From Cyanobium sp. CACIAM 14 (GTDB lineage Bacteria; Cyanobacteriota; Cyanobacteriia; PCC-6307; Cyanobiaceae), in assembly GCA_000708525.1 (NCBI GenBank), contig JMRP01000011.1, forward strand, positions 1-64,000: DNA of 64,000 bases. The letters run 5' to 3'. The notes beneath the pieces are model-generated. The model searched no databases. It saw only the letters and a list, made by a program, of their open reading frames with translations, and was not told the DNA's origin. The position numbers and the translations under genes were made by a program. Shown here piece after piece: positions 38,657 through 44,953 of this stretch (position 1 is its first letter; the number at the start of each line of letters is the position of its first letter).

Positions 38657-40477
38657 TCAGGGGCGACCTTCCCCCTCGTCGTGGCGGGGCGCCCAGGGAC
38701 TGATCACCGTCGCCCTGGGGTCGGCGTGCGTCTCCTGGGAAAAGGCCGCGATCGCCGTGGGCAGCGTGGGATAGAACCGCCGGGACCCGAGGCGCTCCAC
38801 CACGCCGGCTTTCACCAGCTGGGCGTAGAGCTCCTGCTTCACCCGAGCCATGGCGAAGACGATCCCCTGGCCGGCCAGCTGCTCCTGCAGTTCCAGCAGC
38901 ATGTCCGCGGCCGTGATGTCGATCTCCACGATCGCCTCGGCGTTGAGCACGAACCAGCCCACGGGGGCCGCTTCGGCCGTGATGGCCGCCAGGGCCCGGC
39001 GCCGGAAATCCTCCGCATTGGCGAAGCAGAGGGGGGCGTCGTAGCGATACAGCACCAGCCCGGGAATCGTGCTGGCCCCCTCCCAGTCCTTCACGTCGTG
39101 CAGGCCGGCCAGTTGGGGCACGTCGCCCAGCACGGCGTCATGGGGCCGCACCAGGCGGGCGAACAGATCGATCACCGACAGGGCCACGGCCAGTCCCACC
39201 CCCACCAGGATGTCGGTCAGCAGGACTCCGGCGAAGGTGATCAGCGCCAGGCGGAACTCACTCAGCTTGAAGCGCCGCATCCGCTGGAACTCGGGGATGT
39301 CGATCAGGCGCAGGGCGGCGTAGATCACGATCGCTCCCAGGGCCGCCTTGGGGAACAGGGCCAGCAGCGGCCGCAGGAACAGCAGCACCATCAGCACCAC
39401 CAGGAACGCCACCAGCGAGAACAGCTGGGAGCGGCTGCCGAGCGACTCGCCGATGGCGGTGCGGCTGCCGCTGCTGCTCACCGGAAAGCCCTGCATCAGG
39501 CCGTTGCCCAGATTCACCGCCCCGAGCGCCAGCAGTTCCTGGTTGGCGTCGATCCGGTAGCCGCCCCGGGCCGCGAAGGCCCGCGCCGTGAGCACGTTGT
39601 CGGAATAGCCCACCAGGGCGATCCCCAGGGCGGCGGACAGCAGATACTTGAGCTCCCCGGCCGAGGGTGGCTCCGGCAGGGTGAGGCCCGGCAGCCCTGC
39701 GGCGAAGGTGCCGATCACGGCGATCCCCCGCTGATCCAGCTGGAAGGCCGACACCACGGCCACAGCCAGCAGCACCGCCAGCAGGGGACCCGGGGCTGTC
39801 GGAAAGCGGCGCTGGACCAGCAGCAGGAATGCCAGCACCGCGGCTGCGAGCACCAGGGTGGGCAGGTGGATCTCGGCGGAGCGGGCGAGGAGTTCCCGCA
39901 ACTGCCCCACAAGGGATTCGGCCTTCAGATCCACGCCGCTGATCTTGCCGATCTGGCCGGTGATCATGATCACCGCCACCCCGGCCATGTAACCCACCAG
40001 GATCGGCTTGGAGAGAAGATCGGCCAGAAAGCCCAGCCGGCTCCAAGCCCCCAGGAAGCAGAGGAGGCCCACGATCAGGGCCAGCAGGCTGGCGAGGCTG
40101 GCATAGGCAGGGCCGTCCCCCGCTGCGAGCGGCGCGATCGCCGCCGCCGTCATCACGGCGGTGGTGGATTCGGGCCCCACCGAGAGCTGGGGCGACGAGC
40201 CGATCACGGCATAGAGCAGCATCGGCGGCAGGATCGCCCACAGCCCGGCCACCGGTGCCACGCCGGCCAGTTCGGCGTAGGCCATGCACTGGGGCACGAG
40301 GTAGGCCGCCACGGTGACCCCCGCGAGAACATCGCCGCGCAGCCACTCCGGCCTGTAGGCCCTCAGCTGCCGCAACCCCGCGAGCGAAAAGCCGGATCCG
40401 TTCCCGTTCGCTCTGGCTCCCATCGCTCGTTCGCCGCCGTCGCCGGGCCGGATGCGTTCCTCATCCGAGGATGGCAC
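38657..40477 (-). CDS. SulP-family anion transporter with STAS domain
   Basis: SLC26/SulP transporter, 606 residues, with about 12-14 membrane segments and a C-terminal STAS domain (from about residue 450: GLVLYRYDAPLCFANAEDF, then VEIDITAADMLLELQ). The signature VPQCMAYAELAGVAPVAGLW is present near residue 63. Members carry sulfate, bicarbonate (BicA) or other anions; sequence by eye does not tell which. BicA-like function is attractive in a cyanobacterium but unproven. The start is GTG 40477 or ATG 40423, the latter giving a more usual N-terminus. Confidence 0.88.
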   Translation of the reverse strand: MPSSDEERIRPGDGGERAMGARANGNGSGFSLAGLRQLRAYRPEWLRGDVLAGVTVAAYLVPQCMAYAELAGVAPVAGLWAILPPMLLYAVIGSSPQLSVGPESTTAVMTAAAIAPLAAGDGPAYASLASLLALIVGLLCFLGAWSRLGFLADLLSKPILVGYMAGVAVIMITGQIGKISGVDLKAESLVGQLRELLARSAEIHLPTLVLAAAVLAFLLLVQRRFPTAPGPLLAVLLAVAVVSAFQLDQRGIAVIGTFAAGLPGLTLPEPPSAGELKYLLSAALGIALVGYSDNVLTARAFAARGGYRIDANQELLALGAVNLGNGLMQGFPVSSSGSRTAIGESLGSRSQLFSLVAFLVVLMVLLFLRPLLALFPKAALGAIVIYAALRLIDIPEFQRMRRFKLSEFRLALITFAGVLLTDILVGVGLAVALSVIDLFARLVRPHDAVLGDVPQLAGLHDVKDWEGASTIPGLVLYRYDAPLCFANAEDFRRRALAAITAEAAPVGWFVLNAEAIVEIDITAADMLLELQEQLAGQGIVFAMARVKQELYAQLVKAGVVERLGSRRFYPTLPTAIAAFSQETHADPRATVISPWAPRHDEGEGRP

Positions 40478-40581
40478 CGGGCAAGGGCGGCGCCTGCAAA
40501 GGCTGGAACCTCTCTTAACCCTTCGTGGCCAGAATCTCCTTCATCCAGGCGACACGGCAAGGGCTGGCTTTGGTCGCACGT

Positions 40582-40587
40582 TACAAT
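40582..40587 (+). promoter_or_regulatory. Possible -10 box of the Anbu operon
   Basis: TACAAT lies 31 bases before the GTG start of the Anbu gene and matches a sigma-70 -10 element. No clear -35 box is seen at the normal spacing. Confidence 0.35.
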
Positions 40588-40617
40588 TCAGATTCTCGTC
40601 AGGGGTGGTAGGGGCTG

Positions 40618-41379
40618 GTGACGTATTGCGTCGGCTACTGGTTGGAAAAGGGCCTCGTCTTCGCGTCGGACTCGCGCACGAATGCTGGTGTTGACTATAT
40701 TTCCACCTACAGCAAGATGTATTCGTTCCAGCCGGCCCCAGACCGGTTGTTCATCCTTCTGGCGGCGGGGAACCTCGCCACCACCCAGGCGGTGGTCAGT
40801 CGGATCCGCCGCGATCTGGATCAGGCGATCGAACCAGCCTCGGATGGAGCCAGGGACCTGCGCACCTGCGATTATCTGTTCGAGGCGGCCGCCTATGTGG
40901 GTCGTGTCAGCGTGGCGGCGCAACAGGAGCACGCTCCCACGCTCCAGGAGGCGGGGGCCAGCGCCCAGGCCTCCTTCATCCTGGGAGGGCAGATCGGCGG
41001 CGAGGCCCATGGGCTGTACCTGATCTATCCCCAGGGCAATGCAGTGATGGCCACGCGGGAAACGCCGTTCCTGCAGATCGGAGAAAGCAAATATGGAAAA
41101 CCACCGCTCGATAATGTGGGGCACACCAATCTTTCCCTGGAAGACGCTGCCCGGCTCTGTCTGATCTCCCAGGTGCTCACCCAGCGCTCCAACCTCACGG
41201 TCGGCCCCCCGTTTGAGCTGGCCCTCGTTCCCCGCGATGCCCTGGCCATCTCCCACCGGATCAGGCTCGAGGCGGAGGCTCCCGAGCTTGCCGCCATGTT
41301 CGAGATCTGGAGAGAGGCCCAGCGGGAGGCTCTCTATCGCCTGCCCCATTTCCCCTGGGAGCAGTCTGCACCCCCATGA
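40618..41379 (+). CDS. Anbu, proteasome-like peptidase
   Basis: Ancestral beta-subunit (Anbu), a bacterial relative of HslV and the 20S proteasome, 253 residues from GTG 40618. The protein begins Met-Thr-Tyr-Cys, so removal of Met exposes Thr1 as the N-terminal nucleophile without a propeptide. Family landmarks are LVFASDSRTNAGVDYISTY, LAAGNLATTQAVV, ASFILGGQIGGE, YPQGNAVMATRETPFLQIG and ESKYGKP. Anbu genes commonly lie beside alpha-E, ATP-grasp and transglutaminase-like genes; none is here. Instead it overlaps a glutaminase gene by four bases (ATGA), implying coupled expression. Confidence 0.92.
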   Translation: MTYCVGYWLEKGLVFASDSRTNAGVDYISTYSKMYSFQPAPDRLFILLAAGNLATTQAVVSRIRRDLDQAIEPASDGARDLRTCDYLFEAAAYVGRVSVAAQQEHAPTLQEAGASAQASFILGGQIGGEAHGLYLIYPQGNAVMATRETPFLQIGESKYGKPPLDNVGHTNLSLEDAARLCLISQVLTQRSNLTVGPPFELALVPRDALAISHRIRLEAEAPELAAMFEIWREAQREALYRLPHFPWEQSAPP

Positions 41380-42359
41380 CGGCCCAGGACTGGATCTCCA
41401 CCGGTCATCTGCCCTCGCCGGAGGTGGTGCAGGAGCTGGTGGCCGAGGCCCATCGCCGTTTCCAGCCGGTGACGGAGGGCCGGGTGGCGGATTACATCCC
41501 CGCCCTCGCCGCCGCCCCGCCGGAGCGGTTCGGCCTCTGCGTGGCGGGATGCGGCGGACCGCTGTTCGAAGCGGGGGAGTCCCGGGTCCCCTTCAGCATC
41601 CAGAGCCTCTCCAAGCCGTTCATGTTCGCCCTCATCTGTCAGGCCATCGGTGAGGAGGAGGCCCGCGACAAGCTCGGCGTCAACAGCACCGGCCTGCCCT
41701 TCAATTCCGTGCTGGCGGTGGAGCGCAGCGGCGAAGGACTCTCCAACCCGATGGTGAATGCCGGCGCGATCGCTGCCACCAGCCTGGCGCCCGGCGCATC
41801 GCTGGCGCGGAAGTGGGCCTTCATCCAGGATGGCTTCTCCCGCTTCGCCGGTCGGCCGCTGGAGATCGATCGGCCCGTCTACGACTCGGAGGCCGCCACG
41901 AACCGGCGCAACGTCGGCATCGCCACCCTGCTCAGCGACCATCAGCGCCTCTGGTGGGATCCCGAAGAGGCCACCGACCTCTACACCCGTCAGTGCGCCC
42001 TGAGCGTCACGGCGGCGGATCTGGCGGTGATGGCGGCCACCCTGGCCAATGGAGGACGCCAGCCGGTGACGGGGGAGCAGGTGATCGATCCCAGCCACTG
42101 CCAGCACGTGCTGGCGGTGATGGTCACGGCCGGGCTGTACGAAACCTCCGGGGACTGGCTCTATGCCACCGGGCTGCCAGGCAAGAGCGGCGTGTCCGGT
42201 GGACTGATCACGGTGGCCCCCGGCAAGGGCGGCCTGGCGACCTATTCTCCGCCTCTCGACGAGGCCGGCAACAGTGTCCGCGGGCAGCTCACCGCCCGGT
42301 TCCTCTCGGCAAGGCTCGGGCTCAATCTCTTCGCCTCCACTCCCGATGCAGTTCGATAG
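41376..42359 (+). CDS. glsA: Glutaminase
   Basis: Serine-dependent glutaminase of the beta-lactamase-like fold, converting glutamine to glutamate and ammonia. 327 residues, normal length. The nucleophile motif is SLSK (Ser77-Lys80) in FSIQSLSKPF. Other family signatures are NPMVNAGAIA, YDSEAATNRRNVGIA, LYTRQCALSVTAADLAVMAA, and LPGKSGVSGGLI near the C-terminus. It overlaps the Anbu stop by four bases and the glutamate symporter start by 14 bases, so the three genes form a tight operon concerned with glutamine/glutamate. Confidence 0.95.
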   Translation: MTAQDWISTGHLPSPEVVQELVAEAHRRFQPVTEGRVADYIPALAAAPPERFGLCVAGCGGPLFEAGESRVPFSIQSLSKPFMFALICQAIGEEEARDKLGVNSTGLPFNSVLAVERSGEGLSNPMVNAGAIAATSLAPGASLARKWAFIQDGFSRFAGRPLEIDRPVYDSEAATNRRNVGIATLLSDHQRLWWDPEEATDLYTRQCALSVTAADLAVMAATLANGGRQPVTGEQVIDPSHCQHVLAVMVTAGLYETSGDWLYATGLPGKSGVSGGLITVAPGKGGLATYSPPLDEAGNSVRGQLTARFLSARLGLNLFASTPDAVR

Positions 42360-43539
42360 TTTCGCCACCTTCAACATCGCCATCGTCGTGCTGGCGATCG
42401 GTCGCTGGCTGAACCGCAAGGTGGCGGTGCTGAGGGAGTTCAACATCCCCGAGCCCGTTACCAGTGGCCTGCTCGTCTGCATCCTGCTGGCCCTCGTCCA
42501 CGGGGCCACGGGCATCGACGTCAGCTTCAATCTGCAGACACGGGATTTTCTGCTGCTCTACTTCTTCGCGGCGATCGGTCTCAACGCCGACATCAAGACA
42601 CTGCTCTCCGGCGGCAGGCCCCTGCTGATCCTGGTGTCGGCCACCGTGGTCTTCATCGTTCTTCAGAACCTGACCGGCGTCGGCGTTGCCACCCTGCTCG
42701 GTCTGAATCCCCTGGTGGGGTTGCTGGGTGGTTCCGTGTCCATGCTCGGGGGACACGGCACGGCGATTGCCTGGGCTCCGAGATTCGCGGACACCTACGG
42801 CATCAGCAATGCCAAGGAGATCGGAATCGCCTGTGCCACCTTCGGCCTGGTTCTTGCCTCCCTCATGGGTGGTCCCATCGCCCGCCTCCTCATCCGCAGC
42901 CAGAGGTTGAAGCCCGAACAGGCCTCCGGGGTCCAGGGCAACGCCGCAGCGTCCGAAGGCACGGAGCCCGTGACCTATTTCAGTCTGCTGCGCACCCTGT
43001 TCTGGCTGAACATCAGCCTGGGGCTTGGCGAACTGCTGCATGAAGCCCTTCAGTCCGCCGGCAGCAACCTGCCCCTGTTCGTCTGCTGTCTGTTCGCGGC
43101 GATCCTGCTCACCAACACCGTGCCGCGACTGCTGCCCATCGGCTTCCTGGCGCCGCCCCGCTCCCTGGCGATCGTTTCGGACATCTCCCTGGGCATCTTC
43201 CTGACGATGTCCCTGATGAGCCTGCAGCTGTGGACGATCGCGTCGCTGGCGGGGCCGATCCTGGCCATCCTTGCCGCCCAGTTCGCGATCGCCTTTCTCT
43301 ACGTCATGACCGTGGTGTTCCGGGCGATGGGAAGGGATTACGAGGCCGCCGTGATCTGCGCCGGCTTCGCGGGGTATTCCCTTGGCGCCACCCCAACGGC
43401 CATGGCCAACATGTCGGCGGTTGCCAGGAAGTATGGCGACGCCCACCGGGCCTTCATCGTGGTACCCCTGGTGTCAGGGTTCTTCGTGGACATCAGCAAT
43501 GCCGTGGTGATCCAGCGTTTCCTCGTCTGGTTGGGCTGA
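42346..43539 (+). CDS. gltS: Sodium/glutamate symporter
   Basis: GltS/ESS-family transporter importing L-glutamate with Na+, 397 residues, about 10-12 membrane helices in two inverted halves. The pore-loop signatures are GGSVSMLGGHGTAIAWAP in the first half and AGFAGYSLGATPTAMANM in the second, both typical for the family. NIPEPVTSGLLVCILLALV matches its N-terminal region. ATG at 42346 lies inside the end of glsA. With glsA it could supply glutamate for osmolyte or nitrogen metabolism. Confidence 0.93.
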   Translation: MQFDSFATFNIAIVVLAIGRWLNRKVAVLREFNIPEPVTSGLLVCILLALVHGATGIDVSFNLQTRDFLLLYFFAAIGLNADIKTLLSGGRPLLILVSATVVFIVLQNLTGVGVATLLGLNPLVGLLGGSVSMLGGHGTAIAWAPRFADTYGISNAKEIGIACATFGLVLASLMGGPIARLLIRSQRLKPEQASGVQGNAAASEGTEPVTYFSLLRTLFWLNISLGLGELLHEALQSAGSNLPLFVCCLFAAILLTNTVPRLLPIGFLAPPRSLAIVSDISLGIFLTMSLMSLQLWTIASLAGPILAILAAQFAIAFLYVMTVVFRAMGRDYEAAVICAGFAGYSLGATPTAMANMSAVARKYGDAHRAFIVVPLVSGFFVDISNAVVIQRFLVWLG

Positions 43540-43573: not shown

Positions 43574-44953
43574 TCAGAAGCGAAGGGTGGCCCGGATCAG
43601 CCCCGCCCAGACGCCGAGCGTCTCCGTTCCCGGCGGGTACGGCCCGTTCAGGGCCTGGGCGACATCGGCGAGGCCGGTCAGGGCTCCCTGGGGCCGGCTC
43701 AGCCAGAACAGGGCGGGCGTGAGGGTCAGATGGTCGCTGACGGCGATGCGGTAGAAGACCTCATAGGCCAGTCCGCGGTCGTCGATGGCGCTCCCGCTCA
43801 GGGTCCTCAGGGCCGTCAGGTGCGAGGGGCTCCCCAGCGCGACTCCCAGGCTGTTGCCCACCCCCAGCACATCGTTCCAGACCAGTCCGGCGTACCAGGA
43901 CCGGGAACGGGCCCCTGACACCCCGGCCACGGCATAGGACGCGAAGCGGAAGCTGTCCTGGCTCCAGCCGGCGCTGATCGAGGGCCACCAGCCGGAGCTG
44001 CGGGGCTGCCAGTACCCCGCCAGCGACCAGGAGCCCAGGGACCCGTCGCGCCCTTCGCCGGCGAGCTGGCTGGTCAGAGGCGTGCCCCTCAACCGCACCG
44101 GTGGACGGCTGAGGGTGTAGGCCGCGGTGACGTTCCACTGGGGCCGGGTCAGGGCCAGCTGCAGGGTGCTCGTGCTGGAGGAGGCCGGCGAGAACAGTCC
44201 GCCAGCCAGGGAGGCGTCGTCGGCCCGCCCGGCCACGTAGGCGTAACCCAGGCTGAGACCCTGCAGCGGCCCCCCGGGTCGCCACCAGGCCCCGAAGCCG
44301 CCTCCGAGCCGCTTGCTGTAGGCCCCGGGGGCCCCGGCGTACTGGAACAGGTCGAGGATGGGCGAGGCGTTGTAGACACTCGGCCAGACGGGCAGCATGT
44401 CCAGCTGCATGACCCGGGCGCCGACGCTGAGCCGGATCTCCGGTGTCACCGGAAACTGGAGATAGGCCCGGTTCACACTGACCAGCCGACCGGAGCAACC
44501 TTCCCCGCCTCCGCTGCATGTCGGCTCCTGGAAGGCGAAATCCAGGCGGGAGAGAGGGGTGGGCGGATTGGAGAAGAAGCCGGAGGGGGCGAAGTCGCCG
44601 CTGCGCAGGCGGATCCGGAACAGATCCTGACCCGTGAAGCTGGTGTCGATCGTCAGACGGACGTCATGGTTGAGGCTGAGGGCGTTCAGCAGCGGTTCGC
44701 CGTCCACGGCATTGGTGGCCGCATCGATGGCGGTGCCTCCGTAGCGCAGGGCTCCCGCCGCTCCAGTGATCTGGACCCGCACCGTCGTGGTGGGCGCGAA
44801 ACCGCTGGCCTCCAGTTCCTCGACGGTCTGTTGGATCGACCCGGGACCCTCCAGGGCCGGCCCGGGTCCGATCTCCTGGGCCAGGAGCGGGCCGCTCGCG
44901 CACCCGAGCCAGGCTGCTGCCAGCCAGGCGGGGGAAGCGGCGGAGCAGGACAT
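43574..44953 (-). CDS. Cyanobacterial outer-membrane porin-like protein
   Basis: Exported protein of 459 residues: signal peptide to about residue 25 (GPLLAQ), then a beta-rich sequence with many alternating aromatic strands, ending in RATLRF whose terminal Phe is typical of outer-membrane barrels. The pattern LDFAFQEPTC, YLQFPVTPEIRLSVGARVMQ and LGGGFGAWWRPGGP resembles the carbohydrate-selective (OprB-like) porins of cyanobacteria. The usual SLH domain at the N-terminus of large cyanobacterial porins is not seen; only a short helix (SIQQTVEELEASGF) is present. The transported solute is unknown. Confidence 0.78.
   Translation of the reverse strand: MSCSAASPAWLAAAWLGCASGPLLAQEIGPGPALEGPGSIQQTVEELEASGFAPTTTVRVQITGAAGALRYGGTAIDAATNAVDGEPLLNALSLNHDVRLTIDTSFTGQDLFRIRLRSGDFAPSGFFSNPPTPLSRLDFAFQEPTCSGGGEGCSGRLVSVNRAYLQFPVTPEIRLSVGARVMQLDMLPVWPSVYNASPILDLFQYAGAPGAYSKRLGGGFGAWWRPGGPLQGLSLGYAYVAGRADDASLAGGLFSPASSSTSTLQLALTRPQWNVTAAYTLSRPPVRLRGTPLTSQLAGEGRDGSLGSWSLAGYWQPRSSGWWPSISAGWSQDSFRFASYAVAGVSGARSRSWYAGLVWNDVLGVGNSLGVALGSPSHLTALRTLSGSAIDDRGLAYEVFYRIAVSDHLTLTPALFWLSRPQGALTGLADVAQALNGPYPPGTETLGVWAGLIRATLRF

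Follow-up and report, generated by a model that had tools for sequence, protein, structure and literature searches.

Layout and products of the locus

The window analysed here, a 64,000-nucleotide stretch of DNA from Cyanobium sp. CACIAM 14, carries three overlapping genes on the forward strand: an A-type Anbu gene belonging to a glutaminase-linked clade (40618..41379, GTG start, 253 aa), a glutaminase gene, glsA, of an Anbu-linked subfamily (41376..42359, ATG start, 327 aa), and the sodium/glutamate symporter gene gltS (42346..43539, ATG start, 397 aa). The open reading frame coordinates bear out the 4-nt (ATGA) Anbu/glsA and 14-nt glsA/gltS overlaps described by a first-pass annotation of this DNA. 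The locus is bounded on the left by a divergent SulP-family sulfate permease gene (38657..40477, minus strand) and on the right by a convergent OprB-like porin gene (43574..44953, minus strand), both outside the operon. The overlaps, common strand and clean boundaries indicate that the three genes probably constitute a single operon, and Anbu, glsA and gltS would thus be co-transcribed. The 14-nt overlap is local to the window, and in several sister species glsA and gltS are separated by genes for a permease of the AI-2E type and for an unknown protein.

The 140-nt divergent intergenic region (40478..40617) is the expected home of the operon promoter and contains no sigma-70-like promoter match, and no exact NtcA site (GTAN8TAC) was found upstream of the A-type Anbu at any locus. 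A palindrome, GTGATCTTGATCAC, lies about 77 nt upstream of the A-type Anbu at L034, L035, L036 and L040, with one base differing in L040; it matches the CRP-type core GTGAN6TCAC and is kept in sister species and absent from the window. A single terminator-like site inside gltS occurs at chance level and was set aside.

The Anbu product scores 17.3 bits against the Pfam Proteasome model, under the cut-off of 22.4, and its identity was therefore taken from full-length matches to solved Anbu structures, including the designed Anbu 5LOY (E=1e-66; the alignment spans residues 1-247 and takes in the C-terminal region), 5NYJ, 5NYW and 5LOX. At the level of sequence comparison we regard its fold as settled by these matches. 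Alongside this full-length homology, the protein has the Thr1 after Met, Asp17 and Lys32(33) that mark the Anbu-1 type, and Thr1, Asp17 and Lys32 are invariant in all 62 sequences of the glutaminase-linked Anbu clade. Residue 48, the counterpart of specificity residue 45 in 20S beta subunits, is Ala in 60/62 of these sequences and Ser in 16/16 canonical Chromatiaceae copies; Ala48, an S1-pocket residue, was dropped as a clade diagnostic because Ala also occurs in some Ectothiorhodospira and Thioalkalivibrio copies. Two local variations were seen elsewhere in the clade, namely extra in-frame residues, variable in number, near positions 67-78 of some B-type proteins (L070, L071, L072, L090 and L091) and a glutamine-rich C-terminal tail of about 30 residues in the Anbu at L155:1450-2313.

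The glsA product matches PF04960 (E=4e-101) and the NCBIfam glutaminase A model. Its closest solved relative is YbaS (1U60), the acid-resistance glutaminase of E. coli, with which it shares the family, the SxxK motif (QSLSKPF, aligned to ESISK of YbaS) and the absence of extra domains. It differs from YbaS in forming its own Anbu-tied subfamily, and known acid-resistance genes are absent beside it. The gltS product matches PF03616 (E=1e-121) and is a full-length TIGR00210 equivalog (452 bits against a cut-off of 311), as expected of a GltS sodium/glutamate symporter; what sets the gene apart is its context beside Anbu and glsA. The invariant Thr1/Asp17/Lys32 and the conserved SxxK motif suggest that Anbu and GlsA of the window are both probably active, and Anbu would act as a hydrolase in vivo. 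Peptidase activity on standard substrates or proteasome peptides has been detected for none of the Anbu proteins tested (PMC6376114, PMC5666114).

Anbu types and their partner genes

The window genome carries three Anbu genes, the window copy, a copy on C6 (65% identical) and a copy on C48 (42%), and a family-wide search found up to three kinds in Anbu-bearing Cyanobiaceae, which we call A-, B- and C-type. The A-type is the window copy with its partners glsA and gltS. B-type proteins (L033, L053-L072; G000 C6:55618-56394) are 65% identical to it, and their genes directly follow hrcA, which encodes the heat-shock repressor, with trpB convergent downstream of Anbu. C-type proteins are 42% identical to the window Anbu; in most Cyanobiaceae (L073-L089) their genes adjoin N-formylglutamate amidohydrolase-like (PF05013) and transglutaminase-like genes, so that glutamate/glutamine chemistry appears again in the same organism family, with other partners and in a separate clade. 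The C-type copy of the window genome itself is not beside such genes. Cyanobacteria sampled outside Cyanobiaceae have, as a rule, one Anbu that is 40-46% identical to that of the window.

Compared with the canonical Anbu-1 operon (Fuchs et al. 2017), the window Anbu shares full-length homology, the Thr1/Asp17/Lys32 residues, the S1-pocket residues Thr20 and Leu52, and the lack of an adjacent AAA+ ATPase partner. It differs in forming a separate clade, in having Ala rather than Ser/Thr at S1 residue 48, and in its partners, which are glsA and gltS in place of ATP-grasp, Alpha-E and transglutaminase-like genes. As the first-pass annotation had stated, none of these three canonical partner genes is found at the window locus; an intact ATP-grasp/Alpha-E/transglutaminase operon lies on C12 of the same genome and adjoins none of its three Anbu genes. 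Sequence and active-site residues place the window Anbu in the Anbu family, but its neighbours are not those of a canonical Anbu operon.

The grouping proved not to be unique to this genome, since a neighbourhood survey of the kind first proposed for picocyanobacteria found Anbu-glsA(-gltS) recurring in Cyanobiaceae and Chromatiaceae. A glsA gene immediately follows Anbu in the same orientation at 18/23 A-type, 4/10 Chromatiaceae-type and 4/33 B-type loci, and gltS lies nearby (in the flanking sequence retrieved, at most about 8 kb) at 16/23, 8/10 and 0/33, respectively, where the B-type set counts one locus fetched twice (L069 and L149) and absences in short contigs weigh little because some of the fetched contigs were short. 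The four B-type loci with glsA comprise two intact genes, one with an internal deletion and one remnant, and another remnant adjoins the B-type Anbu of G051. Spacing from Anbu to glsA ranges from -4 to about 66 nt across measurable loci, Chromatiaceae included. Neither glsA nor gltS was found at any of 70 canonical gammaproteobacterial, 18 C-type or 11 other cyanobacterial Anbu loci. The canonical gammaproteobacterial loci have ATP-grasp at 56/70 and Alpha-E at 52/70, and neither gene occurs at any of the 66 loci of the window's Anbu clade, so that no locus in either set has partners of both kinds. No plasmid-borne member of the clade was found with 60% identity or more.

Co-occurrence across 151 Cyanobiaceae genomes follows the same lines. 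With relatedness and genome size ignored, a glutaminase of any kind is present in 28/32 Anbu-bearing and 5/119 other genomes, and gltS in 27/32 and 4/119. Alpha-E is present in 31/32 Anbu-bearing genomes and also in 56/119 others, and the canonical module therefore tracks Anbu much less closely in this family and can exist without it.

Two family-wide surveys showed that the Anbu-linked glsA forms its own subfamily, adjoining Anbu in 19/19 Cyanobiaceae and 3/3 Chromatiaceae genomes. The three linked Chromatiaceae genes are 70-72% identical to the window glsA, and other glutaminases found there reach at most 45%. One candidate member, the L236 glsA from a Thiocapsa MAG, was rejected, as it branches just outside the group and has no Anbu beside it.

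Origin and inheritance of the Anbu-glsA pair

In a tree of 82 Anbu proteins, the A-type, B-type and Chromatiaceae group form one clade (100/100), which branches from within the canonical Anbu of Chromatiaceae (97/84 and 100/99) and lies far from the C-type and other cyanobacterial proteins. This clade has been found so far only in Cyanobiaceae, in Chromatiaceae and on one 3.1-kb contig (L155) from a sulfidic-cave MAG labelled Phycisphaera, which carries gltS-Anbu-glsA on one strand and may be misbinned. The Chromatiaceae arrangements vary: gltS is divergent from Anbu-glsA at L272 and L273, Anbu-glsA stands alone at L271, Thiocapsa roseopersicina and Lamprocystis purpurea have the clade Anbu with gltS nearby and no linked glsA, and G584 and L280 additionally keep a canonical Anbu with ATP-grasp/Alpha-E. 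The glsA tree agrees with the Anbu tree, as it groups Chromatiaceae-linked with Cyanobiaceae-linked genes (94/95) and separates B-linked from A-linked glsA. Where a genome has A and B copies together, the linked glsA is at A in 15 cases, at B in 2 and at both in none. The most likely history suggested by these trees is that Anbu-glsA was acquired from Chromatiaceae by a forebear of the Cyanobiaceae carriers and then duplicated, after which one copy lost glsA; the direction of transfer is inferred from the nesting of the clade within Chromatiaceae Anbu.

The same nesting among Anbu that have ATP-grasp/Alpha-E, predicted peptide-ligase partners, lends something to the idea that the A-type Anbu is a specific amidase or isopeptidase freeing glutamine or glutamate from a conjugate, with GlsA acting on the product. 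Amidases do occur among Ntn hydrolases, Anbu leaves standard peptides uncut (PMC6376114), and the Ala48 of the clade departs from the Ser of canonical Chromatiaceae copies. We nevertheless consider this reading distinctly unlikely, as Ala48 is found too in some canonical gammaproteobacterial Anbu, and as the Alpha-E gene is present in 56 of the Cyanobiaceae genomes in which no Anbu was detected and absent from one Anbu-bearing genome, a mismatch from which it follows that conjugate synthesis by the Alpha-E module would not be coupled to Anbu here.

The history of gltS is less uniform. The gltS of the window operon forms one clade with most Cyanobiaceae copies, and the Chromatiaceae copies form another, which takes in genes near A-type Anbu in G062 and in Cyanobium sp. 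FGCU6, the latter lying 5 kb from Anbu. In G062, the gltS beside the A-type Anbu is split by transposase genes/insertion sequences (L050:9045-12358). The gltS genes at the locus are thus of two lineages and stand in several orientations. Some main-lineage gltS genes lie apart from Anbu, and in several genomes gltS is unlinked, which makes its tie looser than that of Anbu with glsA.

A block that seemingly moved between phyla, with a variable gltS, could also be a passive passenger whose genes have no common function. This is improbable given that the Anbu-glsA adjacency survived transfer, duplication and several flanking contexts, that one linked glsA per genome was kept in the two-copy genomes, and that the gltS genes at the locus belong to two separate lineages. 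Functional coupling of Anbu, GlsA and GltS, the core of the original interpretation, is well supported by comparative evidence: adjacency recurs in two phyla, glsA was reciprocally lost between Anbu copies, Anbu and glsA were co-inherited through transfer and duplication, two gltS lineages in several gene orders occur at the locus, and neither partner is present at the 70 canonical gammaproteobacterial loci. The support is strongest for Anbu with glsA and weaker for gltS.

Possible roles of the linked genes

The pathway first suggested for this locus, in which Anbu frees peptides, GlsA makes glutamate and GltS recovers it, is plausible but hypothetical, as is the alternative suggestion that Anbu serves the turnover of glutamine-rich peptides. 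In the reading that we prefer, to which we assign a probability of roughly 0.4, the locus encodes a glutaminase-linked Anbu variant in which Anbu would be co-expressed with a cytosolic glutaminase and a glutamate importer, the three together channelling recycled nitrogen and carbon into glutamate. As a proteasome-like Ntn hydrolase, predicted to form a split ring, Anbu would cut cytosolic proteins, peptides or glutamine/glutamate-containing amides, and general peptidases encoded outside the operon would complete the breakdown of its products. GlsA would turn the resulting or imported glutamine into glutamate and ammonium, and GltS would bring in external glutamate or recapture leaked glutamate. 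The feeding of GlsA by Anbu products and the direction of GltS transport are the steps that we infer. Besides the comparative evidence given above, salvage is favoured by the reported rise of Anbu in nitrogen-limited Pseudomonas putida (PMC5666114, PMC6376114) and by growth of freshwater picocyanobacteria on glutamate and glutamine; one of these, with GltS, showed its shortest lags when glutamate, glutamine or aspartate was the source of nitrogen (PMC11851481). Several observations count against it. A glutaminase works against glutamine synthetase, and expressing it constitutively would run a futile cycle; classical cyanobacterial nitrogen control would use the NtcA site that is missing upstream; the B-type paralog, usually without glsA, indicates that Anbu can do without an adjacent glutaminase; and the lack of cleavage of standard proteasome peptides by any tested Anbu, together with the unlinked gltS of several genomes, points the same way.

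The main rival to salvage is an operon for osmotic or acid stress, where GlsA and GltS would serve to increase glutamate and ammonia in the cytosol as Anbu clears damaged proteins in parallel, the genes being co-regulated and their pathways separate. The nearest solved glutaminase, YbaS, is an acid-resistance enzyme, and GltS provides the same metabolite, glutamate. The sister paralog also ties this Anbu branch to stress, as B-type Anbu mostly begins 10-54 nt 3' of hrcA on the same strand (one-base overlap in three), a conserved unit that suggests heat-shock control of the B-type copy; no CIRCE elements were found near hrcA by a simple regex. The upstream sequence of the A operon in sister species, with a CRP-like palindrome and not an NtcA site, is compatible with such regulation. 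This explanation, which we judge rather unlikely, leaves unaccounted for why the linked glsA subfamily occurs only beside Anbu and not beside other stress genes.

The Anbu-glsA-gltS grouping is genuine and conserved in two phyla; a search of the open-access literature turned up no earlier description of it. We tentatively propose, while holding it doubtful, that an Anbu branch which arose in purple sulfur bacteria and later reached picocyanobacteria may be a Gln/Glu-releasing hydrolase in which a glutaminase and a glutamate transporter replace the ATP-grasp/Alpha-E/transglutaminase partners; if this is true, the product stream of such a dedicated enzyme would reveal Anbu chemistry. In cyanobacteria and purple sulfur bacteria alike, Anbu is here associated with two proteins whose chemistry is known, and the link to glsA and gltS provides a specific clue to the role of one Anbu branch that makes the question of the Anbu substrate directly testable.
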